64,000 nucleotides of DNA from Bugula neritina (Eukaryota; Bryozoa; Gymnolaemata; Cheilostomatida; Bugulidae): positions 30,899,273 to 30,963,272 of the forward strand of contig OZ037766.1 of NCBI GenBank assembly GCA_964035545.1, in the 5' to 3' direction. The position numbers and the translations under genes are program-made. The stretch's first letter is position 1; every line of letters starts with the position of its first letter. Below are positions 2,744 to 60,962 of this stretch, piece by piece. Below the pieces are notes generated by a model. It was not told the DNA's origin. It was given only the letters and a program-made list of their open reading frames with translations, and searched no databases.

Positions 2744-3061
2744 GGGATTATTTTCTACGTATTTAAATAGTCATTATGTTTGTCCAATAAGGAAAACCAT
2801 AAAAATAATATATTGATGAATATATGAAATGCAATTTTATAATGTCAATGATGCATGTGGTTGTTATACGGTTTGAATTAAAAATTAATTTATGATGAAA
2901 AATAAACTATGTTGAATCATTATCTAGTGATATTTCAGAATATGATGCTCTTTTTTACAAAAAAGAGTTTGTAGAGTTTCATATATAGAACAGAAAGAGT
3001 AGATTATACGTAATATTGAGTAGGAGAATATAAATCCGTGTTTCCAATATAGAAAATTATC

Positions 3062-3155
3062 ATGAAGGTCCTTTTCCTTGTTTCTGTCATTGCTGTTTGT
3101 CGGATGACCTTTGACCCAGGTAATGAGGCAGCTAAAGCTAGGTTATCCTTGCAGT
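3062..3155 (+). pseudogene. Decayed signal-peptide exon of the cysteine-rich peptide family
   Basis: It begins ATGAAGGTCCTTTTCCTTG after an acceptor-like TATAG and an AAAATTATC leader, almost identical to the coding exon 2 of the four intact genes downstream. The reading (start [17 protein letters not shown]) has an Arg inside the hydrophobic core and changed prosegment residues. It runs into a (TA)n microsatellite where the donor and intron should be. No mature-peptide exon was found after it, so it is a fragment marking the upstream edge of the array. Confidence 0.7.
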
Positions 3156-3172
3156 ATAAGTATTTTTATAAC

Positions 3173-5190
<2,018 letters not shown>

Positions 5191-5196
5191 TTAGCA

Positions 5197-5516
<320 letters not shown>

Positions 5517-39452: not shown

Positions 39453-39852
39453 ATGAATCAATGGAGACCAAACCCCCAACATTTCACTAGCATCAAACAA
39501 GCATTTATGGCGATTTTCAACTGCATTATGTGAGTCATATGCTTTGAATAAATAATATTTACTTGTCACAAAATCTATTTGTATATCTTTAGCTAACAAA
39601 ATAATATGTGCTCAATTGTTAAACACACATATGTATATTTATATAATACATATATGCAAGTATATACATGTATACATGTATATATGTGTAATATGTACAT
39701 GTATATATATACATACATGTACATGTGTATGTCATGTATACATGTGCAGGTACACGTACATTTACATGACATACACACACAGGCACACAGGTACACATAC
39801 ACATACACACATATGCATATATATAAATATAAATATATATGCATATATATAA

Positions 39853-39907
<55 letters not shown>

Positions 39908-41948
39908 CGGAGTTGTGTTTACTTGTCAGCCTACCCCGTACAGAGTTAGAGCCTGGTGGTACATGTAGAACCCAGGCAATAAAGCAGGCAATGAAAAGAC
40001 ACAGACTCACAGTTGATATTCACACACTCTTCACACCTACTATGGACTGCATCAAAGAGATTGGTGAGTTGAACATATATCTTGCATATTCAGTTTGACC
40101 CCAAATGCATTGTAAGCTTTGCAAATAAATATCAATTGCAATAAATTGTATAGACAGAACAGTGAAAATATATTTAACTTTTCTATGAACTTAGTAATTT
40201 TAGGTTAAATTGCCTGCGCTGCTTAAAATAATTAGTATTTAACAGTTGTGATTTAACAACAGCATAAATACAGAAACCTATAATGCTGGTAAACCAAAAA
40301 ATAAATTTATAAACATATTATACCTTCTTTTGAAGCTTCTCTGCGTGCACAGGATGTGTGTATGTGGTTTTGTGCAATCATTTAAATGCATTTGTGCTGT
40401 TGTGTGTCTATGCAGTTGTGAATGTGTGTGTAAAATAAATTTCATGCTAATCAGAAAAAAATGTGCGTCTAATAATTTGCAGACAATAAGCTATGCCCAT
40501 GATGCATTGAAACAATTATATTCCAATCTGGTATCAAAATTCATACTGAAGTGCGTGCAACTAGGGTATTGCTATTAGATTTTATTGTAGTCTGCATCTA
40601 TATAAGAAATGCAAGAAGCTCAGATGGGGTAATAGACAGTTCAATACTAAAAAGGATAATGACTGAGAAGAAGTCAACGGCCATGACCTTGTTTTATGAA
40701 TACTTACATAAACTGAGCGTGTGCAGAGAGGATAGAAGTTTTGCAATCCTAATATCTGTAAATTCGTTACCTTTTAAATATTGACATAATAATGTGAATA
40801 TATGAAAATCCTAAAATAAATGTTATAACCAATTTTTAATTTTTTTATAATGCTTTTATATAAATCATACATAATTATCATGTCACATGGAAACTATGCA
40901 AAGAAAGATTATTATCTAAAATAACTTTGGTTTATATAAACAATATTGTAGCACTTACTGTGTGTTGGATTAATGATTGCTCAAGCACTGATAGAGCTGG
41001 AAGAGATAAATTATAACAGACTGTGTCACGTCATAGAGTGGCTCTATCACCATCTTATGTACACCAGAGAACCTTCTTGGAGCAGATATCTGGAAGATCA
41101 CGGAGGGTTTGTAAGTTGATAGTTTGCTCAAATCAAAGTTTAAGTTTGTATTATAGATGTTATATAGCTGCTAAAAGATAACTGCAGCTATATTCATGTA
41201 TCTGATTATTTGCATTGCTCTGTATATATAATAGGTTTTTATTGAACTGACATACTGCAACAAGCCTTTAAAATATGCTGTAGTTTTTTTAACTTTAAGC
41301 ATGCTCAGTTAGTGGTTTAAAAGTTTTGTGAATATCGTTTACTATATAAAACTTTTATACAATAAAATAATTTAAAAACTGATGTGTAGTTTGCAGTAAT
41401 AAAAATGTTTATGCTCAGTTTTCCTTAAATGTTGCATTATATCATTATATTTTCTACTAAATTAAAATTATAAAACATAAATACACATTTTTTGCAAAAT
41501 TAAATTATTTATTATTTTCTGACTAGCAGTTTTTGTTTGACTCTATTTAATCAGATATACTACTTCACATTTAGATGTGGCCTCAATGAATAAGCTACAC
41601 TTTATTTAGTAAACACTACAAAATCTTTAGGCTATGTTGACAAACTTACCAAAAGTGAGAGGAGGGATGACCATCTTCACTCAAGTACCACACTTTGTCC
41701 CAAGATCTGTGTCTAACATGTACCAATCACTGGCAGACGTTGCAGCAGAAATAGACTATCTGATTTCCCGTATGCAGAGCTGTTCCTCCGCTAGCCAACA
41801 GGACTGGAAGCAGTCTAGAATAAATGATGCACCAAACACTGATGACATAGTCACACCGAGGCATTTAATAGAAGGAATGGCTCAATCTGAAGTTGTCAAA
41901 ACTGGTGTGAAGTTTTTAGACGCAGTTTTAGACTCATCTTATAAATAA
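39453..41948 (+). CDS. Bcl-2-like protein 1 of cluster (284 aa)
   Basis: Exons 39453-39529, 39930-40063, 40591-40757, 40952-41110 and 41631-41948; intron phases 2, 1, 0, 0; 855 bases. Exon 4 encodes the most Bcl-2-like part: LLCVGLMIAQALIELEE (alpha5-like), HVIEWLYHHLM (alpha6-like) and WSRYLEDHGGF, matching BH2 WIxxxGGW, with the intron immediately after. Exon 3 ends at the BH1 position (REDRSFAILIS), but the NWGR core is lost. Exon 2 gives a short helical N-terminal region without a clear BH3. The 105-residue last exon is polar with no membrane anchor and matches nothing recognised. A long microsatellite occupies intron 1. Role inferred: regulator of, or scaffold in, mitochondrial cell-death control. 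Confidence 0.65.
39600..39905. repeat. Complex TA/CA/GTATACAT microsatellite
   Basis: Mixed ATGTATAC, CACACA, TATAAATA and pure TA repeats in intron 1 of Bcl-2-like gene 1. All long ORFs here are repeat artefacts. Confidence 0.9.
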
Positions 41949-42363
41949 AATATTATGCCATCAGCAAGTTTTCACAAAACGTCTACAATTCATGGAAAAA
42001 AGAATGTGGAATATTTCTAATTGCAAAACAAAAGAAAGTTAAATAATTTTATTCTTATTTTAATTTTATTTTGAAATTATTGGTTCACAATAAAAGTTTA
42101 AAAATTCATAACAACATTAAATGCTTTTTATAGCTGTTTTATTTATGTTTTGCTTTTCTTTCACAAAAAAGCAAATATACATAGTGCATTAATATAACAG
42201 TTGGTCTTTTTATAAAAGCTTTTACTAAGAAAAGCATTTATTATCAAGCTGGTGCAGAATTTCAGCTGTCATTTTAGTAGAAACATTCTTAGTCAAGATT
42301 TTATTCTGTAGCACAGCTTTGCAAAGAGAAAATATACATTTTTTACTCAAACAAATTGACAAA

Positions 42364-45041
42364 ATGTTGAAAAGGAAAACAATCAAAACAAGCAAGTCGT
42401 GGACAGATTACATTATGGGAAATACAGTAGAAGCCGAGCTAGCTCTGCTAAAGTCTACAATCATTAGTTTGGTGAAACAAATGTACGTATTTATGTATAT
42501 ACATATATATTTATATTATGTACTTTAATAGTAAATGTCTATATGTCTATATGTTTCATACTAAAACTGTCAACATATTCATATAATTTCCTAGTACCTA
42601 TAATTAGTTAACAAACCTTTCCACTAGTTTTTAATATATACCTGCTGAGTTAATTAGCGCTTCCCAGGCTATAATTCAGTTGACTATTATAAATAATTTT
42701 AGGATCATCTCTCATCCTTCTAATAAAATGGGATTGTCTCCCCGATCTGAAAGCGTGCTCAGATGTCTACAGATGTCATCAGACAACCAAATCTCTGCTC
42801 CTCTGACTGTCAAGTTTATGAACATGAGTAAGTATAGTCATGTTAACTTTTGTATGCTATAATTTTTTTATGACACATTTCGTATAAATTCAATATTCAA
42901 GACTTGTGTATTTCTCAATAAATCTATCAACTAAAAATTAGCATCATTATATAGTTTTATAAGATTGATGCAAAATTTAATATTATTTAGATAGCTTAGT
43001 GCATGTGACTAATTATGCTGAAGTTTTTTTAATCACATGTATGGCTTTGTACAACACTGCAAAAGTTTTATATGGCTTGAATTTATTACTTTATTTTATG
43101 CGTTTCTTTACATACCTCATCTTAAAACATTGTCAAATTTGTTTTATATTCTATAATGTTTTATCATAATGAATGATGTATTATATTGTTTTATATTATA
43201 ATATCACTTGGTGTTATATATAGTGTATATTTTATTATGTCATGCTATATCATAATAACATACTATGTTACATATTTTACCACATTCAGTACAGTATGCA
43301 GACATAGACTCAATCAGACCTGTTCTCAACAGAGTAACAGTGACTGGATTCAGCATGTGCTGGTCAGAAGAACGGATTGAAACAGAACTCTGGTACATTG
43401 TAGTCGTCATTCTGCAGTCAACCAGAGAAAGAAAGTGCTTAGAAAAGTTGCTAGCCGTGGGTATCATGCAATTGTCAATTTGAATTATTTACAAATTTTC
43501 AACATTTAGTTATTTGAATTGAAAGACTTTTGCCAAATTAGCTTAGACAAGAAGTGATGATTATAGCAAATTTTAATGAAATATATATATAAACTACATT
43601 TTACATTCAGCATACTATAAGCTTCTTTTAAAAATAAGAAATGATAAAAATTCATAATGCAAACAAATTTGCATAACAAAAAGATTTTGCTATATTAAGT
43701 TATTGCCAACTATTTATTCCTTTAGATTGAAAAGTTTCTATATATGCAGAATAATAATCAAAAGTTGTATTCTCTACCATTATAACATAGCCAAGTCTAT
43801 CAAAGGGGCTAAAATGAAATATAACTAATGTATTGCACAACACCCATTTTAGTAGTCAAGGAGGGCTTTTAGGTTAAACTTGAGAGTGCCAATATAGTGA
43901 AAGCTATTGTAGCCCTTCGTGCAATAGTATATCTTACTGTATTTCTCTACAGATGATAGTATTGGTGATGGATGTGGTAGAAGATATCATAACCAACTAT
44001 CAAGTTCGTACAACTCGCGTCACAGTGTTCCTGAAATTTTTCTTTAAGAATCTTGACAAGGATTCAATTCCAACTTGGCACGAATTTCTACTTGCCTCCG
44101 GTGGTCTGGTTTGTATCAGTTCACCATCCAATTTATAATATAATATAAAATAATATAATATAATAATAATATATCATTTTTGCTCATGATAATGCATTGA
44201 AGAGTTTAAACAAGTTATATATGTTATATTAAGGAGTAACCTAACTAACATTTGCTTATGTAATAAAGATCTTTAACTGATTTTGAAGCATCGCTTAAAT
44301 TGTTGTGACTAAAACATAGTAAATTACCAGCTTTGCTATAACATTTGAAAGCAAAGATCAATTCGAAATGAAGCTATTTTAAATGTTGTTAAACTTTAAA
44401 TTATCAACAAGGTGTAATGGACTATAGAGGTTTTGACCGATAATAATTATAGTTAATTAATATCTTTGTAGAAGTCTTTATTAGAAGTTCCGACATTGAG
44501 TGTCGGTTTGCCGAGTGACGGTTGTTTTGACGTGGGAACTGTAGCCAGCTGGTACTCTCAGCACACCATCTCAAACTGTCACTGTTACAAGTACAATTTT
44601 ATTAACAAACCTAAAGTTTCTTCAGTCAGAACTTCCTGTATTTGCTTTAGCAATATCAACGGATTATTAAATCAAAATCACAATTTAGTTTTTTCAAAAA
44701 ACAATACACTTCACATCTCACCAATTGTTCACCAAAACCCTTATTCACGTAGTAAACGCCCATTGTCAGTTGCGTTAGGGCCAAAGGAGATTGATAAATC
44801 ACGAAAGCACGCTGAAAAAATGTTAAAGGAGTTCCTAACAACTCGCCGTTCTAAAGCAGTCCCAGCTTTCATTGATCATAATTCAGAGGATAATGGTTAT
44901 CTGTATACGAATGGCAAAGTCTTTGAGTTTCCTCATTTCTCGAAAATGACTGTTCATGGAATTGCTTTAAAGTTAAAGAAGGTCGTAAGAGTTCTTAGTG
45001 AATCAGCAAAAGGTAGTGGACACGAAGAAGTGAGTCTATAA
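42364..45041 (+). CDS. Bcl-2-like protein 2 of cluster, with long C-terminal extension (378 aa)
   Basis: Exons 42364-42482, 42703-42827, 43290-43456, 43953-44108 and 44472-45041; phases 2, 1, 0, 0; 1137 bases. The BH2 equivalent is WHEFLLASGGL with the intron straight after GGL. The alpha5-like helix MIVLVMDVVEDII begins exon 4, and VTVFLKFFFKNL fills the alpha6 position. Exon 3, 167 bases as in gene 1, ends in the diverged BH1 region (LEKLLA), using donor GTGGGT. The last exon is unusual: 189 residues, with a Cys/His-rich start (CHCYKYNF, TSCICF), then basic Ser/Lys sequence ending in a helical segment. No domain was recognised in it. Confidence 0.65.
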
Positions 45042-46173
45042 GTATCTTATTCATTGCTGATGTAGAAGCTTCACAAGAAAGCTGAGTATATCACTTGTAG
45101 TGACACTTCCACTCTGACTATTTGTAGTAATCAAATGTTGATAATAAAACTGCTGTTTACTGCTACTATAGTTGATCAGAATGACATTGGAATTTTTTAT
45201 TTTACTTTAACATATTTAGTAGAGGTTTTTTTCAACATGTCCAGTTTTTTCATTGAGCAGCAGTTAGTTTTTGTATTATATTATAATTGCACTCTCATTT
45301 TATGATCATTTGATTTGTATTTGTTTGAATTGGTGATCATGGAAACACAACTGCATTTCTTATAATTTCTACTAATGTAATGCTTTGTCTTTTATAGATC
45401 TGATTTGTATTATTTTAGTAAAAAACTAGCTACAAACTATAAATAAAATAAAATATTTAGGATTATACACCTATCGTGTTTGATTTCTTATTTCTGATAG
45501 CTAAAACAGTGATTCTAAATACAAAAAAACAATTATAGCCTAAATTTTCAAACAACTTCACCTGCATGTGCTAATTTTATTTTAAGTACAAATGCTAATT
45601 ATATAAATAAATTAGGCATATTAATTTATGAAATAATTGAGAAAAGCTAAATTTGACAAATTCTAAAGTTAAAAGTGTCCATTTTGATTTAGGCTATATA
45701 ACTAGAGTGATAGCCAAAATATCTTTAGCTTCAAGCCAATAAAGCTATATTTATATACAGCTTTGATTGCTTTGCTATAACCAACAGCTATATAAGCTAT
45801 ACATGTATGTGTGTATATAAAACCACGTAAGAAATTTTTTGTATATAAAGCTGGTGATCCTCAAATAGATATCATTTATGATTTTATCCAGTGTACGAGG
45901 TATGGACATTTAGTACCTTTTCAGTTAAAGCAGCAGTAGTTAGAATATACTATAATATTTATACAATTTTATAGAATAATTTATACTATGATTATGTTTT
46001 CTTCTAAATATTTAACATTTTGATAAAGGCTTTATTAATTTGCTAATGAAAAAAATTTAAAGCATTTTTCAGTTTGAAATATTTCTATAGAATAGAAATT
46101 AAAAGTAATGCAGCTATGTGTAAAATCATGTTTTATAATATTTTAGCTTTTTTATTAATCTGAAGAAGAAACA

Positions 46174-49014
46174 ATGGCCGACGAGAAAGAACTGAGTTCA
46201 GATTTGGCTTCTTTGTCTCTTCATGATGATAACAGGGAGCATATCGTGATGAAAAGAATGCTGCTTGGATGTCTACATAGAATGTAAGTTTTTTTATGAC
46301 TCGGCATTGTGTATTATAATTGACAATGTAATTTTTAAAGAATTTATTTTTGTAGTACATTGACATGTGCTAGCAATTAGTGTATTTTACCAGTAAACAA
46401 TTGCTTGACAAAACTTATTGCAGTAGGCTAAAGTGCTATTTTTAAATAACTGATGGATTGTTTTAATGCGTACATTATTTTGGTTTTAGCGTTCACTTTT
46501 TGTAGTATTATCATTAATTTTTACGTTAACGATGTGAGCATTTTAAAAAAATCATAATTGCATTATGCTACCATTATATACAATCATTGAAGTTCACATA
46601 TTAATTTTAACTTATAAATACTGATTGTAAAACAGGAAAACTGACTTGCACAAAGCTAATAATTTAATTGAACGAACTTTTAAATAAAGCAAATCCATGA
46701 GCGGCTAAAAGCCAAAAAACTTTTGATAAATAAAAAAAGGTAAAAAATATAAGCCAGAAAATACAAGTCGAGTAATATAAATTATAATGGAATAGAAGTA
46801 ATTAATGTTATTGAATTACTCAAAGAATTTTAAAATTGTTTACCAGAATTATATTACTTCATAAAATATTGGCTGAATAAGTTATAGTTTTGTTCAGCAT
46901 GTGTAAAACAAATGTTGCAGAGTAGATACCTACAAGAGACATTCTCTGGAGCTGGAGGAAAGATATCAGCAAGCTGGTAAAGTTGAAAGTGCACTACAGA
47001 GATTCTGTGAGCTCGATGATGACGACGATTACTGTTTCATACGTCTAATGATACATGCAAGTAAGTTTACCTTTGAAAATAATATCATAGGTAATTGTTT
47101 TTGAAACGATGTACATGTACCTTCAATATATAATATCTTAAGTAACTGCAAATTCAATAATTTAAGTTTAACAAATGTAAATTTATTATTTTAAATTAAT
47201 TTATTAGATTATACAAAAGCAGCTTATATTTATTTAAGTTGAAGATATTGTCACACGAAGTCACTAAATGCCACAAATTCAGTTTCATCTATTTATGGAA
47301 AAAATTTTCAGTGAAGTTTATATTTTAACATTTAAAAAAATTAGTTATGAAATTGCTAAACTATAACAGTTTATTTGCAATTTTATCACTATAATTCTTT
47401 TTGCTAATATAGCAAATGTTGCATTATTGAAAGTCTTAAAAAGAACGATTGGTTTACAAGCACATTAGCTTGAAGAATGATAATTTTGGGTCAACATGTT
47501 CAATAGTTCGAGATGCAGATGTGGTAACTGGAGAGCCTGTCATTAGCCCCATACTGGTAGAGAGGCTTCTTCACTCCCTTGCAAGCTGCGAAGGGCAGCT
47601 GATTTACAATCAGGTGATGGACTCACTAATAGAAAATGACCAGAACCTGTCAGTGGTTGTCACGGTAAGTGAATGTCCTTCTCACAACAGATATTATTGA
47701 TTGGATTGGTAAAAATTGAGGAATAAAGTGTCTATATTTATAAAAAAATATGTATATATATATACATATATATAATTATATTATAATATAATAATTAATA
47801 TTATGTGTTTATATGTAAATTATTTCTTGCTGCGTGGTTTTCGACAAGTTCAAGACAATTCTCAATTTTTTTAATGTGAATCAAATTTTCTACATTGAGC
47901 TACTAAAAAAATTTTGAATCACCTCTTGAGGTATTGAAAATCCAATAATTGTAGTAGACCTACCAATGATTACCATTATACTATATTAGTTTGTTTATTT
48001 TACTACAAATTACAACTTAACTTATTATTGTCTTTTAAATATTAATATTTTTTGTATCCGATACTTGTAATATGCTATGAGAGGAAAACGTATATTTAAA
48101 GCTGCTTAATTTAGGCAATTGCATTTTCAACTCCCAATTCTTTATATAATTGTTTATCTTAGATCACCATAGTGACTGTAGCACTAGCAGAGGAGATTAT
48201 CCGAGACCAAACTGTTAACACGATGCGAGTTTGCTACATAGTGGAATGGTTCTTCAGTTATATACACTGTAGCTCATTGCAACCCATTCTAGAGAGCGGT
48301 TGTGGTCTGGTAAGATGTCTATCTAACTATTGCATAAATATGTTTGTATAAAGCTGATATGCTATTATTGTATCAATCTATAAAAACATTGCATAAATAT
48401 GTCTACACAGTTGTATTAATTCATCTATAATATTGTATAAACCTGTCTATGCTATTGTATAAACCCATCTATGCTATTGTATAAACCCATCTATGCTATT
48501 GTGTGAATCTATTCTAAAAGCTCTCTATGTTAATGTGTATAAAGTGTTTATGCCATTGTAAAAATCTATTCATACTGCTACATATAATACATATCTATAT
48601 TATTTATATTATATTTAATGCATTGTTCTTTTTTTGAAATACCATAAAATGGCAGGTGTCAAACTTAAGTTGATAAGATGTATATTAAGTGTAATTATAC
48701 TGCGTGTTGTATTAAAACAATTTTATCTAACAATTTTTGGCAGTCAACTAAATTTAAGTAATTGTGGTTGGTTTTAATGACACTTATGTTTTTGCTCTGA
48801 GTTCATTATACGGTTTGTGATAGTTATATATAGTAGCTTCAATCTCATGAACCTGAATCTCATAATATTTTAGATAAACTTTATGTTAGATGACTTGGAT
48901 TTCGAAAGTGTAAACAGATCAGCCATTTTGAATACTGTCAACAAACAGATAAAGAAAACAAGAAAATGGCAGCAGAATGTAGAAGAAGAACTCAGAAAAG
49001 AGTTGTGCCAATAA
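46174..49014 (+). CDS. Bcl-2-like protein 3 of cluster (231 aa)
   Basis: Exons 46174-46283, 46921-47060, 47507-47664, 48163-48309 and 48874-49014; phases 2, 1, 0, 0; 696 bases. The exon 3 acceptor TTCAATAG was chosen because it gives the same two-base start and the same IxxAD[IV] junction as gene 2; upstream AGs are alternatives. BH1 region: MDSLIENDQNLSVVVT, then ITIVTVALAEEII in exon 4. The alpha6-like helix is YIVEWFFSYIH. The BH2 equivalent is ILESGCGL, where one Gly is Cys, and the intron follows at the usual place. Exon 2 holds ALQRFCELDD, which loosely matches a BH3 LxxxGD pattern. The C-terminal exon is a charged 46-residue helix without a membrane anchor. Confidence 0.65.
48330..48590. 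repeat. Minisatellite-like tandem repeat in intron
   Basis: Several imperfect copies of a roughly 23-bp unit resembling CTATGCTATTGTATAAACCC, tidiest at 48440-48505, in intron 4 of Bcl-2-like gene 3. Confidence 0.75.
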
Positions 49015-49222
49015 AATATGTATTACTGCTTGTCTGTGTTTGTATATTATGTTTGTATGCCAGATGCAGTTGTTTATATTTTGTATACATTGTCTATTAT
49101 ATATGTCAAACTAAATGATTCACAATATAAAGAATGTAAAAGTTTAATATAACTTATCCTCTTTGCCTACCCTCATTTATCACTACTCTGCCCTGTTTGG
49201 TTGTTGGCTTTATATAATACAG

Positions 49223-49227
<5 letters not shown>

Positions 49228-49283
<56 letters not shown>
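49228..49283. repeat. (TA)n microsatellite
   Basis: Pure TA run of about 55 bp. The flanks were checked for the hammerhead core seen at 8.3 and 25.0 kb; none is present. Confidence 0.95.
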
Positions 49284-49288
<5 letters not shown>

Positions 49289-49410
49289 TATAGTATGAAA
49301 AACATGTATTTTGCATACTAATCATGCACTGATATATTTATTTAGATAAAATCTATTACTAATGCATATATATTTAATTTAATATACTTATATATATAAT
49401 ACGTTTATGA

Positions 49411-49530
49411 GGGGCAGCCTTGGTCTATAGAGGTGAGAGACTGAGTAATTAGTGAACACAAGAATAAGGGTTCAGTCGATCCCAGAACAAGCTATTACTT
49501 GATGATGTTGAGGACAAACAGTCATATATA
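49411..49530 (+). mobile_element. Diverged tRNA-derived SINE head
   Basis: Starts GGGGCAGCCTTGGTCTATAG, matching the SINE heads elsewhere in the window, with a B-box-like GGGTTCAGTCGATCCC. After that it shares only a short TGATGATGTTGAGG with the others, so it is truncated or another subfamily. Confidence 0.5.
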
Positions 49531-50107
49531 TAGTTGCCCTCGTGGCGGCTTGTGACAGCATTATAGAAAGCACAAGTATATTGAACTTACTCAAGAATGT
49601 TTTCTGCATGTAAAACATAATTATAATGACACTGCATAGAATAAGGATAAAAAAATGTTTATACAGTAAATACTCAAGAAGCAAATGGCACCCATGACAT
49701 GTGACCAAAATGCAATACTATGAAACCACCTTTGTCTTGCTGGATGTACTATAATACCAAAAATTTTCATCTATAGCTTTTTTCTGAACAAACTTGCAGT
49801 TATCATTATATGCTGCCAAATTCAATTACCAAGTAACATTTTTAAATGCTAAATACCTATATATATACAGATATGGCAAACTTTATTAAATAAAAAGCTC
49901 TTTTATTAAAAAGTAGACTTACTATATATAATATAATAACTTAGCAATCTTTATAACATCTGCACTTAGTCTAATTTAAAAGATAATGCTTTTGTTCTGA
50001 TAACCGATACTTGATAGACAAAAAAGTCGCCTAAACTTAAATGTTTTCATGCAAAGACAATATTCTAAAAATTTATTTTAAACTTTTATATATAATATAC
50101 TCACTTC

Positions 50108-50478
50108 CAGAAAAATTTGATAATCTAATGCCTATAAAAGCCCAATTCACCACAATTTTCTGTCCAATAATTTTTTTCTAAAAGTGACTGACCATAAACG
50201 CATATAATATTGTGTCTATATATACGGCTAAGATAGGCAAAATATTTTTCATATAATTTGCATAAAAATATTAGTGTGGCATCATTTATAAATGGTTTCA
50301 CATAACTTTCATAAGACATTTCAAAACTCGGAGGTATTTTGTTCAGGCTGGTTTTATCCTTGACACAGAAATGTATTGCCCACAGCAACCGGAGTCCAGT
50401 TGGAAGCCATTTCACCTGTTTGCTGCTCACAACAACACCGAGGAGGGTCAGGTGCAGCAGATAAAGATTATCCTAGTC
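50108..50478 (-). pseudogene. Orphan exon-like segment, unrecognised gene
   Basis: On the minus strand, an acceptor (GCCCGACTAG) opens a frame of about 117 residues (DNLYLLHLTLLGVVSSKQVK near its start, then a tryptophan-containing helical region) with coding-like composition. It reaches an in-frame TAG about 30 bases before a good donor (GTGAGT) at 50107. No partner exons were found on this strand nearby. It may be a relocated or dying exon of an unrelated gene lying antisense between Bcl-2-like genes 3 and 4, or a terminal exon. The family is not recognised. Confidence 0.35.
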
Positions 50479-50573
50479 GGGCTTGTCCGTAGAATGTTGG
50501 TAGTATTCTTGTTGTGAAAACTTGAAAAATTTTACACAGACATGTTCCATATATTGGATTGCCTTTTGCAAAA

Positions 50574-53014
50574 ATGAATTATTTTAAAGATGCTAATTTG
50601 GATATTGCAATTCTACAAAATTTACATAGATATTGCCAAAGGCTTTTGGTCAAGTTTATATTAGTGAATTTACGCTTACACTAACGCAGTAATCGCAATT
50701 GAAATATCTGATATCATAAAATTTAAAAGTTGCAAAATCAAAAAATAGTTCATTGAAAAGTGAAATAATTTGTTTTTAACTTTATGTCACTGTTTTTATA
50801 CAAAACACACCATTGTAAAGTGTGCAGCTGATGTGTGCAGGAGACCATAATAATATTGTGATCATGATCATACAGGGCTGATACCACCATGGTTGATGAC
50901 GAGGGCGAATGCATGTCTCTGCATGCTTACAATGCTATTAATGAGTTAGACAACCAAAATGTTTCACCTTTCTTCTATAAAGCACCACACATTGATGAGA
51001 TGATTAAGTTGGGTAAATTTTTATGGACGTTATTAATATGATAGATATTATAACTATATTATATTATATGTTATTTATACCAATGATGTATTATAGAACC
51101 ATGTTTCTGAATTTGTCAGCTTCTTGGAATCAACAGTTATTATTTTTTGTTGACAATAAAAAATATATGATGTTCCCATTGGTAAATTATATCTTTTACA
51201 AAAGTTATTGAATATAAATAATTATATATATGTTACCAAGTAACTCGATTCTACATGTGATTTCAGATATGCAGTATTTAGCATATACTCTAATATATTC
51301 TTAGATTGCTTTAATCTAGTATAACCTCTTTATATAATTTAAAACAATGCAGTTATAGATGACTACAAAAATAGCTACATTGTAATGCATATAGAGTATT
51401 TTGTAGCTGAGTTTTCTAAACTCGTAGACGTAGCTCCCCTTGTGAGTCAAAACATCAGCAACATTATTCTTCGACATTCAGACGATAAAATATCCAAGGA
51501 CCAGTTTTTTCACATCTTGCAAGTAGCAAATGAAGCATCAGAAGATGGCAATATTGGAGAAATATTTGCTGTAAGTTAAAAAGTTATGGAAAATTTACAT
51601 TATTGAGTAATTTGAAAACTAAGTTTGTCATAAAGATCAAGATGACTATTTAATTTTGCAATTGCAATTGCAGCATGCATATTCTTGAACTTGGTGACCT
51701 TTAGGACAAGTTTGATTAGATTAGGTACAAATTTAATTTAGGCCAATATAACACTATAATTTTTTAAAAGTTTGAAATGGCATTGACTGTGTGATTTATG
51801 ATGCAAAACCCACCTTAATGCTCTCTAAATATAATTACAAAGACAAAACCATAATAATATACTTAATCAATTTCAAGCAGAGATAAAGGGTAAATTGGAT
51901 CAACTTTTAAATGTCTTTTGCACACTTGGTGCAAAAAGAGCATTCATAACTCACTAAAATCTTCACTATTTTCACTTATTATAGCAAATGTTCATCACTG
52001 CCTCATTGGTTGAGACGGCCATAGTGAGCAATGACGTTCCTTGCTACAGAGGAAATGACCTCATTTCCTGGTTTGTTGAGTATCTCAGCTGCGTCCAGAA
52101 AGTTGGCGAAAGTCTTCTAGAAGCAGGAGGTTTTGTGAGTATAAAATTTACCATAGTTTTATTTCGAGAATGATTATTGTATACACAGCAGTTTAATTGT
52201 GAGTTTAAATTTTTTAGACTTCAATGTCTATTATTTCAATAAAGCGGTTCATTGATCTCTACGAGTAAACATTTTTTGAAATTTTTTAAAACTGGCACGG
52301 CTTCAAATTTAGGATTCCTTTATTTGCAAACTTGGTACCAACTATTTCTAGCATGTAAGGAGCTTTATGCTATAATACTTAAACTATATACTAAAGAAAA
52401 CCAGCAGGTTATATAAGGAATGCATATATATAGTTCTAATTAAAATCAAATCCTGTGTTACAGAGAGAATCATATAATGCTTTAACTGTGCATGCTCTTT
52501 GATCAGCTGACTAGGTTATAGAGTATTATGTTTGTCAATAAAAGCTGCAGCATTAGAAGACTATAATACTATATAATGTACATTATATCTAGTCATCGTT
52601 TAGTTGTTTCAGAGTTTCACACAATTTAATGATTTATAAAATCAAATCTACTCTAATTATTATTTAATTACTAACTGCAGTTTTGCAAAAAATTATTTGC
52701 ACCATGTTTTTAGCTAACTTATTAAGTAATCATATTTAAATACTATTTTCTTGCAACTATTCACATGCATCAGTTTTAAAGATTTATTAATTTTTTATGT
52801 TCATAAAATGACGATAAAATTATGCGGCACATACAATACATTTTTTTTTTCTTTTATTTGGTTTTATTTTTTTAATATTTTGCATTCCTTGCTTTAGGCC
52901 TTGATGTTGGAGCCCGGTAATGATTTGTACATTTGGAACTACGCAGAGCAGTTGTCTTCTCATATTGTCCAAGTCATTCAGGAGGTGACTACTAACTCAT
53001 GTCCAAAAGTTTAA
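50574..53014 (+). CDS. Bcl-2-like protein 4 of cluster (215 aa; 184 aa from the inner start)
   Basis: Certain exons: 50876-51012, 51407-51570, 51985-52134 and 52898-53014. A first exon 50574-50653 gives the family's phase-2 junction but uses a weak donor (AA|GTTTAT). The fallback start is the ATG at 50889 in a strong context (ACCACCATGG), giving 184 residues. BH1 is comparatively well kept: SEDGNIGEIFA ends exon 3 where Bcl-2 proteins read DGxNWGRIVA. The alpha6-like helix is DLISWFVEYLS. BH2 is reduced to ESLLEAGGF, with its Trp absent and the intron straight after GGF. Exon 3 contains IILRHSDDKI, the best BH3-like match in the cluster. The C-terminal exon is 38 residues, the shortest, with no membrane anchor. 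Confidence 0.6.
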
Positions 53015-54244
53015 GCCAAACCTCTGTCAATTAGTTTTTTTTTTCTGTATGCATGTTGATGTTTATGATTGATAAAAGTTGTGAAACAATAAATTTTATG
53101 GATTCGTATTTTTTAAAAGTTGTTTGTTTAAGTTATATGATGTAACTTATATCCGCAACATTAAATTAGCAATTATACATGTACATAATTGTTTAGATAA
53201 TAGTATGAATTGTCCTCTCATAAGCCAATTGTAAAAAGTGGAAGGTCAACATTGGGAAAACCAAGTATAGCCTTAAAATATGTGTAACTGCTAAATGGAA
53301 ATTACGTCTTAATACTTTCTTTACTGCATGTAGCATTTTTCAGCTTAATTTGTTATACTTCTATACAGTACGCCAAGAAGTAAGTGCATCTTTAGTGCAA
53401 AATATGCGTATGTTAAGTATAATTTTAAGTTATTGAAGTCATTTTTACAAATTATATTTTAATTGTTTTGAAATCAGAAAAAATTATTTTAATATAATTT
53501 GTACTGAATTGTGTTGCTTACTCACAACTTGTGTATCTTGAAAATAGTTTATGATACAACACTATAATGACACAAAGTGCTGAACATTGTTATAGCAGTG
53601 GCTTGCGAAAGTTTTCCAAAGAATGGGTTGGTAATCACTCAACCAAAGCTGGTGACAAAACTTACACTGAATAACACTCTGTTTCCATTATAGCATTATT
53701 CGTATGAGATTTTTATTTGCCTAATAGAAATATTTATACGTTGAATGAAGCCGCAACTATAAGTTAATGTAAACCATAGTTAATCCATACGAACATTCAT
53801 TTGAATAGTATGCAGTTATGGAAACACAGTGTATATGAAGAAACATATCCTAAACTCAGCCTATATTATAAGTATATTCAATTGTTGTACTTAGCCAAAC
53901 TAACACTTTTAAAGTCCTATTATGCATAAAATATTGTATACTTCTAAGACTTTTATATTTCCAGCAAATTTACAGAACTGATCACATTATAAGCTAACCA
54001 ATCTTGTATAGCAGAAGTAGTATCATTGGAATAATTTATTATAATAAAAGCAAACTATTTTTATTTAAGTATAATATTTCTATAGCAAAATCATGAACAT
54101 AACAAAATATTTCAGACCGAAATGGTTTTATTTTTGGCTTCACATAACTCTATGACAAGCTTCATAAAGGTCCAAAAATACCTCTAATTTAAAAATAAAA
54201 AAAGTTAAGAATTTCAAAGTGCTGGCACAAAAACTTCAATCAAC

Positions 54245-56980
54245 ATGTTTCCGAGCTCAAGATACATCGAGAAGAACCAGCTGTGCCAAGTAGAGCAGCT
54301 GATCATATCTCTGACAGAAATATTGTAAGTTTATTATTGCAGCTTTTAAATTACTTTTTTTAGAATTTCCATTTTTTTAAATTCCTTATTGTATAGCATT
54401 ATATAAATAAGCTTTATTGTGCACAAAAAATGTTAACTGATTGCATCATAGAGACAACAATATGTACATATGCCATAAGCTTTTTCTCTAAAAGCTTGCA
54501 TATCAACAATGCCATAAAATAACACTTAATTAACACATATATATATACATTACATAACATTGAAGTCAAATCTTATTATAGTATTATCATTTTACCATGT
54601 ATACTACTTTAAAGATATACATATGTCACAATCCAAAATTATATAATATATAATTAAGTTTTAGGAAAAATTTACATTATTATGCATTTACCTGCCATTC
54701 TTGTATTTGACTGCTAACAGGTTAAAGAGTTACCGTAACCCTTGCAACCAAACTCAAATAGACTATGTCATATTGCAAGCTACAATAAACAAATCTGTCT
54801 CTCCAGCAGTGGACCCGAAAGTCGTTGGGAGGTTCAGAAGTATTGGTGAGTATAAATATTGTTTTGTGTTTTGTTTTTAAAAATAGGGGCAGCCGTGGTT
54901 TAAGGGTTATAGAGCAATTTTGCTTAGTAAACCCGAATTATGGGTCCATCCGGACAAAGGCCATTGGTGATGTTAAAAAGAGCATGGAGTCATTATTGCT
55001 TTTGTGTCTCATCTTACTAAGTCCTTAGCTCAATTTAACAAACATTCCTTACTCTCAGGTGTTTCTCACAGGGATGGTAAGAAAAAAGTTTTGCGAGTTT
55101 TGTGCTTTAAAAATAGTTTGAACAAGTTTTGAATAAGTTCTTTTGCTAAGTGTGCAGCCTATAAAAAACTTTAACCTTCATCAACCATGACTGCTGTGTG
55201 TAAACGTCTTTACAAGTGTTATTGTTTTACAGTATTCAGCCGAATGATACTGTCTAAAGATGATTCTTATTCCCAGTACATCTCTGAGTCTACTGTAAAC
55301 AGCATCTGCAGAAGCCTGAACATCGAACAAGCGCAGATAAATTACAAAAAGCTCTTAAGTTGTGCAATGGACTTAAACAAGAGAACGCTGAGCTCGCTGT
55401 GTGCTGTACGTATAAACTTGGAAAATTTTTATTTTTATATTTACTCATTAGTGAAAATGTTTAAACATTGCAAATATATCCATTTGTGTGGATACTAACG
55501 AGATTTGAGTTTTTTATTCAGCGTGCTAGCATAATTTGCCTAGTAAAATCTTTTCTTCTACAGGGCTATAAGGTATTATAAAAATATATATTTCAATTAT
55601 TATAACTTAACTATAAAATTAATATTAAACCCAGAAATCGAACATGCAGTCATCCAAATTCCTAATACACAAAATATTGCACAAATTTTAGCCTTTTCAG
55701 GGTCTAAAATTTTTCCTATGTTTACACTTATACTGTAGCTCTAAATATCTACCAAGCTTGCAAACACATTTACACTGTTTTATGCTATAAATATAGTGTT
55801 TTATTACATACCAGTTAGTAAAATTGGAAAGTCAAATAAAACAGTTATAGAACTTTAAAAGTCATGATAGAATTGTCTAGAATATTGAAGGATTCAATTT
55901 AATTGGTTATGCATATTTGTAGAATACGCTTTGTTACTGCGTGTATATGTTTTTGTAAATGAAATCATTTTACTATTTTGCTAAAAGTTTTAAGTTTGTC
56001 ACCATCTCACTTACAGTAAATATTTACATATGTAGGCAATAGCGATGGGGCCATAATAGCGATTATATGTAACTATAAGTTTGTTTAATAAAAACGTAAT
56101 AATAACTCTATACATGTAATTAGACATATAATTTAATTAAAGCATTATACTAGAACTAACTTAACGTTGATTTTTATTCAGCTGCTCGCAATCACAATGA
56201 CATTGATAGAGCAAGTGGCAAAGGATCAGGAATGTCCACAAGACAGAGCATTCAATTTGATTAACTGGTTTAAAGAAGTCATCACAGATGGGCAGCAGAC
56301 CACTTACTGGATTAAATGGCTGCTTTCTATTGGAGGATTGGTAAGTCACATGACTTTGTAGTAGCAAGTAACGAATATAACAATATTGCTGTACGACTAA
56401 CTGAAATTTAGTATAAATACTAAAAGGATATAACGTTGTACTTAAATATTACTACTATAGGAAACTATAACAGTGGTATTAAAAGAACATTCTTTATACT
56501 ACAATATGATTTAACTTATAAATTTTTGAGCACCCGCTATATTAGTTTAATTTTACCAATGTCCCTTGATTGCACAAACCCAATATAATAATTAAAAATC
56601 TCTTTCTTATCGCATTATTTTTCAGGATGTTTCTTTTATAGTGTTTTGTAAATAACAATTTTTCATCTATTTTAAAAAAATAATGTTTTGTTCTAAAAAG
56701 CGACCAATAATCATGATTTCAGAGAACAATATTGAAGCTTCCAGATTATTCTGACTATTGCCAACCTAGCGATCTTTCTGCGGAGTGGTCGACAGAGTGG
56801 TCCATCCAGCAAATTACTAAGAACACAGCTTGTATTATGAGTAAGATGCAAATGGTGCAACGTCAATTGGCTGACAGCCAACAGGTTGGGCAGAGGGTTG
56901 ACGAATCATGTAACGAACAGAAAAGCCTAACAGTAGATGGTATGGCGGCTTTCCATAACTGGTACCAAATGGAATGTTGA
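54245..56980 (+). CDS. Bcl-2-like protein 5 of cluster (264 aa)
   Basis: Exons 54245-54324, 54721-54845, 55233-55405, 56182-56340 and 56723-56980; phases 2, 1, 0, 0; 795 bases. Exon 2 (125 bases) and exon 4 (159 bases) equal the lengths in genes 2 and 1. The alpha5-like helix is LLAITMTLIEQV, alpha6-like is NLINWFKEVIT, and BH2 is WIKWLLSIGGL with the conserved Trp and the intron after GGL. BH1 is badly diverged (AMDLNKRTLSSLCA). The 85-residue last exon is Gln/Ser-rich and helical, without a membrane anchor. A SINE has inserted in intron 2, about 40 bases after the donor. Confidence 0.65.
54886..55083 (+). mobile_element. tRNA-derived SINE in intron of Bcl-2-like gene 5
   Basis: Starts GGGGCAGCCGTGGTTTAAGG, carries the body ACAAAGGCCATTGGTGATGTT and ends GTGTTTCTCACAGGGATGG. 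Same orientation as the host gene. Confidence 0.75.
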
Positions 56981-56999
56981 TCTCAAGATGGAGTGATAA

Positions 57000-58560
57000 A
57001 ATTTTCTATTCAGCTGAGACAACTCTGAGATTACAATAACTGGACACAAGTTTACTAATTTTTATTGCTGTTGCAATAAACAAAACAAAGACATATAGTT
57101 TTTATATAGTATTATATTTCTCAAGTTAAATTATAGTAACTTCACAGTTATTTTAAATATTTTTAATGATATTCTTTTGAAATAGTAGTAAAATAAATGT
57201 TGAAAATAGTGCAATAACTTCAAATTATTTTTTACTAAAATAAAAATCATAATAGAGTAATAATGTATTGCATATTTATGATTGAGAAGCACCAATCTAA
57301 TAATAATAAGATTTTTTTTGTAAAAAAAATTATAAATAAAGTTAAATTCAGGCAAATATGAAACTTTGTGCAATAAAAACATTAATTATATAAGTGCTTC
57401 CAAAATTTGCTGATCAATAAGGTCTGGTGTCTTTTTTTATAGTGCTTTAGCAAACTCAATAAACTATTATTGATATTAAACAATGCCTAAAACAAGCCAA
57501 TCAGAAGAGCTAAAGTATGCAGAAAAGAAAACAAATCCAGAAGATGATGATTATGTATATTAGCTGACCACTGATTGTCAATGTACTGCTACATTTAAAT
57601 AGGTATAGCAGATACTTTAAGAAATGAATTATATATTTTTTATGGTTACAATTTAAAAGATTGAAATTCTATATAGATTGTCACATGTTGGTCAACAAAA
57701 TCACACTTATTTTGCATGCTTAACAAAAAACTAAGTTAAATTGATGCGGAAACTCATCTATTATAGCCAAAGCATCATCTTTTCAATGTGGAATTCTACA
57801 ACCGAATGTCATAGCCTTGGAGGTTGTAATGAAATAAAGCCAATTGAACTTACTGGAAAGCATATAATAATAAGAAAAATTCAAGCAAGTTTATAGTCAC
57901 TTATATCTCTGTGAGAAACCCCTAATGGAAATAAAGGTTTTTGTTAAAGCTGGCTAAGGTCTATAATAATTTAAATGAAGCACACGAAGCAATTATGACT
58001 GGATGCTCTTATTCCTAACATCACCAATGACCTTTGTCCGGCTCGAACCCATGACCCTGTGTTTACTAAGCAAAATCTCTAACCCCTAGACCATGGCTGC
58101 TCCCAAAGGCATATTATAATAAGGTTGAACAAAAAGTCTAAGGCTATGAGAAGAGCTAGTTGTAGTAATCTAAATAGTATAAACAACTAAGATGAACCTG
58201 CTTTGTCTTCAAATTGATGAATTCATAGATTATACATGCTCATTACTATTTAAAAGAATCTAGCTTCATTAAATTATTCTATCGTGCGACATAAAGTTAT
58301 AAAACTTCTAAGGCAAAAAATTTAAATTAAAAGCAAGTTTACTTGAATTACTAATGTTTGATACGATGCCAGTAATTCTTCAATAACCATATATTCAAAA
58401 ATAAGTATAAAGGTAATAAAATTTAACTTTAACTTATATGATTTTGACAACACTTTTGTCTGTTTTGATTTGAAACTGTAGCTTTTTATTATAGTATTTA
58501 AAACATTTTAGTTTAAATTCTTGAACTATCAAGTTATTTTGAAAAATAGTTGATTGCGTG
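57000..58560. other. Intergenic DNA between Bcl-2-like genes 5 and 6
   Basis: AT-rich and without a supported gene, apart from the SINE at 57882-58104. Confidence 0.55.
57882..58104 (-). mobile_element. tRNA-derived SINE, best-preserved copy
   Basis: On the minus strand it starts GGGAGCAGCCATGGTCTAGG, with A-box-like TGGTCTAGGGG and B-box-like GGTTCGAGCC separated as in a tRNA, then the common body, ending ATAAGTGACTATAAACTTGC. About 220 bp. Confidence 0.8.
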
Positions 58561-58572
58561 CCAAATAAAAGT

Positions 58573-60962
58573 ATGGCAGGATGTGCAACTCCTTATACTA
58601 TACGAACAGTCACTGTAGCACTAGTTAGGAGAAGGTAACTCCCTATTTATACAAGTGCACAATGATGTTATATATGCAAAGATTAGAAACCAAGTAATAT
58701 GTTATTCCCTTAAATGCTGCACAGTCACATAAACCCAAATCTTAGTTTTTTTAAGAAACTTTAATCTTTAATCTTCGAGCTTCTGGCTGCCAACTATCTG
58801 CATACAATTAGAAATATACTTTTTAAACAACATGATGGATTTTACCTATCATTTATTCATTTTCACATTGTTAGAAAGCTTAGTACTCTTGTACTTTACA
58901 AAGCAAGGGCATACTTTAATCTAAAACAAGTCCAAAATTCTTATAAGATAAAGATTTACTATGATTGCATCACATCTAAAATTATATACATTTTGAGCAG
59001 CTTTTTGTCAGTCATTTAAAAGATATTGCATTAAGGTGCAAGATATTAGTTGAAGTTTGCACATTTCAAGCTGTCCTGCTGATGAATAAATTACTAGCTA
59101 GGTGGTAAAACTTCTGTACTTATAAAAGTCTGAGTGTTATTGGTTGAAATAAACTATAATCTGATCTACATAAACAAGTTAAGCAGATTGATAGTAAGTT
59201 GTTGTACTATATAGACTGAGAGAGGCAGGACACCTTGCGGGGCAAGGAAGGAACCCTCGACTATTATATGCACTGTGTAAACTTCAGTCCCACGCTATCT
59301 CTGCTGATATAGACAATTCAGATCTCATCAACGCAATACGCTTAATAGGTGAGATATTTTATTTTCTATATATTATGCTTGTTATACATTGTAAGGAATT
59401 GTGGTTCCATCAGAAGTGGCACAACTCCCATATTTTACTTTCTATATATGCTTGCTATTACATATTTTAAGCACTAATTTTGTAACTTCGATTAAACCTG
59501 CCGTGTTTTTTTACAAGAAAAATATCTAGTAGTAAACTCAACTTTTAGAAAACATTTCTCACTTCGATTTTGAGAGAAACTATCTACGTTTTACAAGACA
59601 TATTATATTTACTGGCTGTGAAGATAAAGCTAAGCAAAAACTTATGAATCATTTGGAGAAAATACTACAAAATGGCCTTGGCTGGGATACAGTAGTGTCT
59701 GTAAGTATACTGAAAGAAATGCTGCTTTTATCAATCAAATGCTTTACTAAATTGGTGGCAATCCTTTTGCTCTACACTTGATGTTTATTTAAACTCAGCA
59801 AAATTATGTTTGGAAATATTACCTTTTGTAAAACAATCTAACATTATTATCAATCAATAGCACACAGGTCACATGTGATAAATGATATAAAATACAATAT
59901 ATATTTGTAAATAAATATTTATATGAACAAGTAATTGTTACAGCTGCTGATAAGTGTGAGTGTATTGGCTGAGCAATGTTACACAGTAAACTCTAACAGG
60001 ATGGTGGATATTGTTGAATGGTTTATGACGGAGTCCAGTATTTGTGGAATTGGCAGTGCGAATATAAATCGATGGCTAGAGTTCAAGGGAGGCTTTGTAA
60101 GTGTAAGAGGTGCTCAGCATGGGTTGAGGTTTTCATCTACTCTGAATGGAGAATATACTAATTTTTTATAATGCACTATTTATTGTAATTAATATTCATT
60201 GTTTTAATGGGACAATTTATGTGCTCTTAAAAGTATCTAATCAATACTCTTTCTGCTTTTAAAAATTGTGAAAATATAACCCCTGGTTTAAATCTGTTAT
60301 TAGCCATTATAAGTACATATAAAATAGCTCATTGTATGCACATGAAATAAAATAATTATGGGGATAAAAGAGGAGATAACTTTAAATAATCAAGTGAATT
60401 ACTCGACTGCTTTACTTTGACAATAAATTCATTTGTTGCGCGCAATTTTTGATTGATATTTTGGTAATTTCAAATTTGATTATATTTTGATATTTTATTT
60501 TGAGTGTGCCTCTTTCCATAATATCGTTCAAAATAATGTTTATACTCCCCATGTCAAGCAACATATCTTTCTATGTACAATTATATGCCATGGTATATAC
60601 TGTATTCTTTATAATTTCTATATCCTTGCATTAATTTCGATTTCTGAAACATTTCTATATATCGTTAAAACTTCCACATCTCTATGCAATTCCCTAAATC
60701 TTTTCAATTTAAAGATTGCTCTCATAATTAACTGAATGTCCAGCGTATTCATTTCATCAGCTATCAGTCTGTCACCATTTCAAGCTGAAAGTTGTTCTTA
60801 CAGGAACAGCTGGAAAAGATGCCGGTGGGTTTGCTAGGAGTGGATATGAAAGATTGTGGGGGCAATACCCTGGCTATGATTGCCCATAGAGTTGATGATA
60901 TTTTCACTAATGTACAGGAGATGGCAAGAACTCCTGGCAAAGGTAAAAGAAAATCAAGATAA
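58573..60962 (+). CDS. Bcl-2-like protein 6 of cluster, clearest BH1/BH2 (219 aa)
   Basis: Exons 58573-58634, 59215-59348, 59549-59700, 59944-60096 and 60804-60962; phases 2, 1, 0, 0; 660 bases. This member makes the family assignment clearest. LEKILQNGLGWDTVVS followed by LLISVSVLAEQC aligns with the BH1 pattern (L-F-x-D/S-G-x-N-W-G-R-V-V-A-L-L), keeping the Gly and Trp. The alpha6-like helix is DIVEWFMTESS. INRWLEFKGGF fits BH2 (RWIxxxGGW), and the intron follows GGF directly. Exon 2 is 134 bases, as in gene 1. The 52-residue last exon ends in a basic KGKRKSR tail instead of a membrane anchor. Whether it promotes or inhibits apoptosis cannot be read from the sequence. Confidence 0.72.

Follow-up and report, generated by a model that had tools for sequence, protein, structure and literature searches.

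A tandem cluster of six divergent, five-exon Bcl-2-like genes in the bryozoan Bugula neritina

Does a row of six poorly conserved neighbouring genes in the bryozoan Bugula neritina belong to the Bcl-2 superfamily, and what has become in them of the motifs that mark its canonical members? The question is raised by a stretch of 64,000 nt (contig OZ037766.1, forward-strand positions 30,899,273 to 30,963,272; hereafter the window), in which a preliminary description had reported a tandem cluster of highly divergent Bcl-2-like genes. It is very probable that the six are indeed divergent members of the superfamily, and that they are tandem duplicates within a five-exon family that numbers about 30 loci in this species. 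Sequence homology to Bcl-2 is reached via a chain, in which a profile of the window genes matches the profile of a second tandem array in the same genome (E 6.8e-6), and the array profile in turn matches BAX (E 1.9e-12).

The six gene models were rebuilt from the raw sequence, guided by the exon plan of the preliminary description, and together span 39453-60962, limits identical to those given there:

39453..41948, plus strand: Gene 1 (284 aa), exons 39453-39529, 39930-40063, 40591-40757, 40952-41110, 41631-41948
42364..45041, plus strand: Gene 2 (378 aa, longest C-terminal tail), exons 42364-42482, 42703-42827, 43290-43456, 43953-44108, 44472-45041
46174..49014, plus strand: Gene 3 (227 aa), exons 46174-46283, 46921-47060, 47519-47664, 48163-48309, 48874-49014
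50371..53014, plus strand: Gene 4 (248 aa), exons 50371-50495, 50876-51012, 51353-51570, 51985-52134, 52898-53014
54245..56980, plus strand: Gene 5 (264 aa), exons 54245-54324, 54721-54845, 55233-55405, 56182-56340, 56723-56980
58573..60962, plus strand: Gene 6 (219 aa), exons 58573-58634, 59215-59348, 59549-59700, 59944-60096, 60804-60962

All six genes possess five exons with intron phases 2-1-0-0, all 24 introns run from GT to AG with lengths of 194 to 776 bases, and the predicted proteins comprise 219 to 378 residues. Several exon lengths recur exactly, with exon 2 measuring 134 bases in Genes 1 and 6 and 125 bases in Genes 2 and 5, exon 3 measuring 167 bases in Genes 1 and 2, and exon 4 measuring 159 bases in Genes 1 and 5, such that the plan of six plus-strand genes with shared phases and recurring lengths was reproduced throughout. 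The coding sequence of the window has a guanine plus cytosine content of 41.1 %, against 26.2 % for the introns, and its 1,620 residues are free of internal stops, although, as the exons were picked as open, this does not amount to a formal test. The least secure parts of the models are the starts of exon 1 and the GTTGGT donor of exon 1 in Gene 4. From Gene 1 to Gene 6, exon 4 ends in GGF, GGL, CGL, GGF, GGL and GGF, immediately followed in each case by a phase-0 intron; the last intron had been placed directly after GG[FL], a position that stands for all six, even if the motif itself holds for five and is replaced by CGL in Gene 3. The helix pattern [IV]xWF, which all members had been said to carry in this or a similar form, is literal in Genes 3, 4, 5 and 6, and appears as IEWL in Gene 1 and LKFF in Gene 2. 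Identity between members is as low as had been claimed, at 17-28 % for the 15 pairwise comparisons across exons 1-4.

Taking the direct evidence alone, Bcl-2 homology of the window genes is suggestive. In the Pfam search of the six proteins that had been proposed, Bcl-2 is the best match of Gene 3 (E 6.5e-4, 20.6 bits, cut-off 31.4) and of Gene 6 (E 5.1e-4, 21.0 bits), both below the cut-off, and no Bcl-2 match was returned for Genes 1, 2, 4 and 5. Searches of the species' own genome with Genes 6, 3 and 5 as queries (Genes 1, 2 and 4 were not so used) recovered each gene itself only. The genome searched amounts to 216 Mb in 295 contigs, with the window on the contig designated C2, and counts of large families drawn from it are lower bounds. 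A genome-wide search with the Pfam Bcl-2 profile (E ≤ 10) returned 28 exon matches, none of them in the window, and NCBIfam TIGR00865 gave 13 exon matches, every one at a locus also detected with Pfam and none over the cut-off.

Among the Pfam matches are two ordinary Bcl-2 genes (L001 and L002), which run from the Bcl-2 homology 3 (BH3) motif to GGW (or NGW) within one exon, together with one exon pair that is Bax-like (L003 and L008) and one that is Bak-like (L004 and L023), as judged from motifs read by eye. A further 16 of the 28 (including L008) end in GGW, NGW, QGW or KGW directly before GT, and most of these cover the Pfam profile only from about 50-65 to 100, which is the same unit as exon 4 of the window genes. 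Within the 13 dispersed loci examined, nine display the exon 3/4 junction, the sixth-last residue of exon 3 being the tryptophan of BH1, although in L031, which belongs to these nine, GGW is not followed by GT; L037 fits partially, and L019, L032 and L033 do not fit. Counting six genes in the window, 16 copies in the array described below and these nine, there are 31 loci of the five-exon type, at least one of which (array copy c07) looks decayed. Two exon-4-like units on contig C8 (L033 and L038, at 5.106 and 5.137 Mb) differ at one position in their last 28 residues; in L033 GGW is followed by AGACAACT, with no GT donor, and in L038 by a near-identical counterpart of AGACAACT, which points either to another kind of gene structure or to a processed piece that was duplicated. 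L019 and L030 (contig C6, 10.887-10.890 Mb) form a further Bcl-2-like gene; in contrast to the five-exon family, its split may fall within BH1 (NWG).

The array occupies contig C8, of which positions 9,850,200-9,955,899 were examined. Its loci (L045-L053) comprise 16 exon-4 copies within 9,874,256-9,942,874 (~69 kb), 14 on the plus strand and two on the minus strand, with exon 4 measuring 141 bases in 14 copies and 129 in two. Copies c07, c09 and c11 reach only E 0.23-0.81 with an exon-4 hidden Markov model (HMM) and were taken by eye for their position and for GGW before GT, other frames at similar E-values having been rejected. The flanks (20 kb on the left side and, on the right, the final 10 kb) contain no exon-4 score better than E 0.27, a background at which a weak array copy could be missed. 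An exon 3 entered in phase 1 and left in phase 0 could be modelled in 14 of the 16 copies, and was the top-ranked candidate in nine of the 16 with the entry phase left free. For the front exons only the phases of the window genes were tried: exon 2 was modelled in 13 of 16 copies, 12 of them joining in frame, and a short ATG exon 1 is plausible by eye in 11 of the 13; the exon 2-to-4 join of c13 is out of frame. The exon 3/4 plan of the array was found independently of the window, and its front exons are consistent with the window plan. Within the predicted exon 5s, several later array members have hydrophobic C-terminal tails and some earlier ones have long polar tails. Copy c07 (L049, around 2853-5482, beside c06) retains a degenerate exon 3 only, contains a stop within its exon 5 stretch and looks decayed.

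It is this array that ties the window cluster to the superfamily. A profile (A3) of exons 2-4, made from 12 of the 16 array cores (excluding c05, c07, c13 and c15), matches 207 distinct chains in the PDB at E ≤ 10, the best 60 of which all belong to the Bcl-2 family, and the Pfam Bcl-2 profile matches 11 of the 12 members at E ≤ 10, with a best value of 9.9e-11. The match of the window profile to this array profile (probability 84.6) covers 69 columns, from helix 4 to BH2. When the window genes were scored with an array HMM that holds none of them, and each was compared with 300 shuffles, Gene 5 (27.1 bits), Gene 6 (17.9), Gene 3 (13.1) and Gene 4 (5.8) each exceeded every shuffle. An exon-4 HMM built on 19 sequences from outside the window was searched against the window's frames plus a further 50 kb, and picked out Gene 3 (E 3.9e-4), Gene 4 (1.6e-3) and Gene 5 (0.016). 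In a tree of 31 rows (excluding c07, c13, L019, L021, L032, L033, L037, L038, L034 and the Bak-like locus), the six window genes fall into one clade, with support of 91/75 and presence in 92 % of 200 bootstrap trees; they are thus probably a single clade of the expansion of approximately 30 loci. The Bcl-2-like label of the preliminary description is therefore upheld for the cluster, by the Pfam matches of Genes 3 and 6, by the match to an array with the same exon 3/4 junction and by the common clade, but not for Genes 1 and 2 individually.

A number of results weigh against this homology. The curated Pfam Bcl-2 cut-off is reached by none of the six genes, which, together with their absence from the genome-wide Pfam matches, bears out the expectation that ordinary similarity searches may miss the cluster. 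Searched on its own against the PDB, the window profile retrieved no Bcl-2 chain, only designed PPR and alpha-solenoid repeats; these matches were rejected as spurious, being sums of sub-threshold repeats. With the exon-4 HMM, an unrelated frame at 5030-5134 (E 0.011) outscores Gene 5, and Gene 1 (0.76), Gene 6 (0.84) and Gene 2 (7.7) rank lower still. With the array HMM, Gene 1 (4.1 bits, two of 300 shuffles as high) and Gene 2 (2.4 bits, 20 of 300) are near chance. In the tree, the six window genes sit on an unstarred branch, the bootstrap analysis had yet to settle, the deeper branching order is unresolved, and there are several long rows. An annotated counterpart among the database matches exists for only one of the six genes; for the AlphaFold model of the array-type protein P0002, Bcl-xL is the best Foldseek match at a probability of 0.90, which speaks for the homology, but with an E-value of 0.18 and with four designed proteins ranking above it in a second look; and the model of P0001, which corresponds to half of Gene 5, matched no fold. 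For the P0002 model, a joint alignment with exon-3 pieces misplaced most exon 3s, such that the alignment used kept the exon 3 of c06 only, and also excluded the short exon 4 of c03.

The near-chance scores of Genes 1 and 2 with both HMMs, and the fact that the rebuild followed an existing exon plan, would also be expected if some of the models were helical open frames without homology that had been made to fit the exon plan of the adjacent genes. This is an improbable explanation, as Gene 1 shares exact exon lengths with Genes 2, 5 and 6, and Gene 2 with Genes 1 and 5, whilst the GG[FL] junction and the phases are present in both, and both lie inside the window clade, albeit on long branches. 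As their own scores are near chance, the Bcl-2-like call for these two genes rests on gene structure and on the clade.

Turning to the hallmarks of the superfamily, the tryptophan of the BH2 motif GGW is replaced by phenylalanine or leucine in all six window genes, whilst the preceding GG is kept in five and reads CG in Gene 3. The tryptophan of BH1 (NWGR) is retained by Gene 6 only, and the arginine two places on by none, Gene 2 having lysine there. In contrast, the 22 other five-exon rows of the tree set all have the terminal tryptophan of exon 4, and 20 of the 22 have the BH1 tryptophan in register (read by eye, as for that of BH2, in c01 and c02, where the pattern missed them); the exceptions are c10, which lacks it, and c11, where it is one residue off, and c13, outside the tree set, ends in VN. 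A BH3 pattern (LxxxGD, searched as L...[GAS][DE]) has no match in Gene 1 or Genes 3-6 and two unconvincing ones in Gene 2, although most array members also fail this simple pattern, so that weak BH3s could be missed. A C-terminal membrane anchor is common in the superfamily, though not universal; a hydrophobic C-terminal tail is absent from all six, the best 19-residue hydropathy of exon 5 being 0.15-0.86, as compared to 1.2-2.3 for the tails of six array members, chosen by eye among the predicted exons. In Bcl-xL the arginine of the BH1 region pairs with the BH3 aspartate. From the loss of tryptophans, arginine, BH3 and tail, the window clade seems, on sequence grounds, to have given up membrane anchoring and the classical chemistry of the BH3 groove; the BH1 changes lower the likelihood of a canonical BH3 binder, not that of homology.

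The same features bear on whether the six might simply be canonical membrane-anchored, BH3-binding survival or killer proteins, i.e. orthologues of Bcl-2, Bak, Bax or Bok made odd by fast evolution. As in canonical family members (Bcl-xL, BAX, BAK, BOK), the window genes have an intron right after GG-x of BH2 and a putative core of helices 5 and 6, and the exon boundary at GGW is already known for mammalian Bcl-2 genes from PMC8998228. Array members with the tryptophan, the arginine and hydrophobic tails do occur, and an ITWGK-like BH1 in some relatives, along with an intron around BH3, resembles BOK. According to PMC7523462, BOK has five exons, and skipping of exon 2 deletes BH4 and parts of BH3, meaning that an intron interrupts BH3; the window genes likewise have five exons, and their exon 2/3 intron also seems to lie around BH3, a likeness of general plan. 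However, the array profile is nearer to BAX than to BOK (E 1.4e-6), and the tree held no BOK and left its canonical rows unresolved; a Bok origin is hinted at by the gene structure, whilst the profile ranks BAX first. Orthology with canonical proteins is nonetheless unlikely, given that none of the six has a hydrophobic tail or the BH2 tryptophan, that five of the six lack that of BH1, with no convincing BH3 in any, and that the same genome has canonical Bcl-2, Bax-like and Bak-like loci of its own elsewhere. The two canonical Bcl-2 loci of this genome also lack the extra phase-0 intron that the window genes have at the start of helix 5.

Might the cluster then be a decaying tandem remnant, drifting without function? 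Such a fate would explain the low identity and lost motifs, and it draws support from the missing hallmark residues in most members, from the lack of annotated counterparts among database matches for five of the six, and from array copy c07, which does look decayed. The likelihood of this is nevertheless small, since five open, stop-free exons are present in every window gene, with all splice sites and phases kept, and since the differences between Gene 5 and its annotated counterpart are unevenly spread. This counterpart, Bugula neritina EB796_024328 (P0001, 144 residues), is the sole match of the six-gene profile in a database of 5.8 billion proteins (E ≤ 1); independently annotated, it corresponds to exons 4 and 5 of Gene 5, joined at an identical junction, and differs at 11 of 138 residues, two of 53 in exon 4 but nine of 85 in exon 5. 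Another protein from this annotation, EB796_023536, matches a gene of the C8 array. To gauge how far B. neritina lineages have diverged, canonical Bcl-2 was tried as a control and proved unusable, its matches being one that is 100 % identical and an unnamed protein that is 68 % identical.

The preliminary description had also suggested strong diversifying pressure, for instance from pathogens, a claim that the evidence does not support. The window genes are too diverged among themselves for the ratio of nonsynonymous to synonymous substitution rates (dN/dS) to be used. For array copies c06 and c07, outside the window and the only young paralogue pair compared, the ratio is 0.40 over the 141 nt of exon 4 and 0.46 over 357 nt of exon 5. 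Such values reflect constraint or relaxation rather than positive selection, and decay of c07 is possible.

Within the superfamily reading, the six genes would have arisen by tandem duplication inside the five-exon Bcl-2-like family. Judging from the alignment, exon 1 would encode the start of helix 1, exon 2 would reach into the BH3 region, exon 3 would extend to BH1, exon 4 would supply the core of helix 5, helix 6 and BH2, and exon 5 would form a variable tail. The window clade would then have lost both hallmark tryptophans (save for the one kept by Gene 6), the arginine of the BH1 region, the membrane anchor and any convincing BH3. A parallel for a possible cytosolic, helix-binding role is offered by the Bcl-2-like proteins of poxviruses (vaccinia N1 and its kin), which are soluble Bcl-2 folds without recognisable BH motifs, albeit viral and intronless. 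Tentatively, the six may be soluble regulators of Bcl-2 fold that act in the cytosol, not as pores or at mitochondria, binding amphipathic helices of partner proteins (BH3-like or new) and tuning death or immune signalling.

The surroundings of the cluster contain features of other kinds. On the plus strand, CCHC zinc knuckles (Pfam zf-CCHC) occur in a pair of open frames within 1-2152, the match of the second frame being below the cut-off; these frames are probably gag-like retroelement pieces. On the minus strand, exons at 33160-36535 weakly match GF_recep_IV and Furin-like (growth-factor-receptor cysteine-rich domains) below the cut-off, and are perhaps part of a receptor gene upstream of the cluster. 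Downstream, an enoyl-CoA hydratase/isomerase exon adjoins the cluster on the opposite strand (61564-61959, minus).

With regard to the scale of the expansion, the available passages of PMC8998228 give as many as 11 Bcl-2 members for Hydra and 11 for Acropora, the largest invertebrate sets mentioned in them, and B. neritina, with approximately 30, has more. Those cnidarian sets are likewise large but near the vertebrate types, whereas the five-exon loci of B. neritina number about 30, with 16 in a single array, and come in addition to canonical members; losses in cnidarians are the subject of PMC10192318. Expansions of inhibitors of apoptosis (IAPs) in bivalves (PMC7831173, PMC8917759) also concern lophotrochozoan regulators of cell death, but a different protein family. 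No report of a bryozoan Bcl-2 expansion is present among the literature titles and abstract openings listed, a scope that does not extend to subscription papers and preprints.

For the family at large, these findings imply that counts of Bcl-2 genes based on Pfam cut-offs can run far too low in fast-evolving lineages, and the five-exon family provides a natural series in which to test what BH3 binding and membrane insertion require. Bryozoan colonies undergo recurrent degeneration of their polypides. It is conceivable, if rather doubtful, that the Bcl-2 fold gave rise to a large and diversified repertoire in this bryozoan, and that its soluble six-gene clade acquired a novel and perhaps non-apoptotic role in signalling, for which immunity, allorecognition and polypide degeneration would be candidates. 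Were this true, a branch stripped of most BH hallmarks, yet retaining the same gene structure, would reveal how far the fold can drift within an animal, and the clade would represent an animal parallel to the Bcl-2-like proteins of poxviruses.

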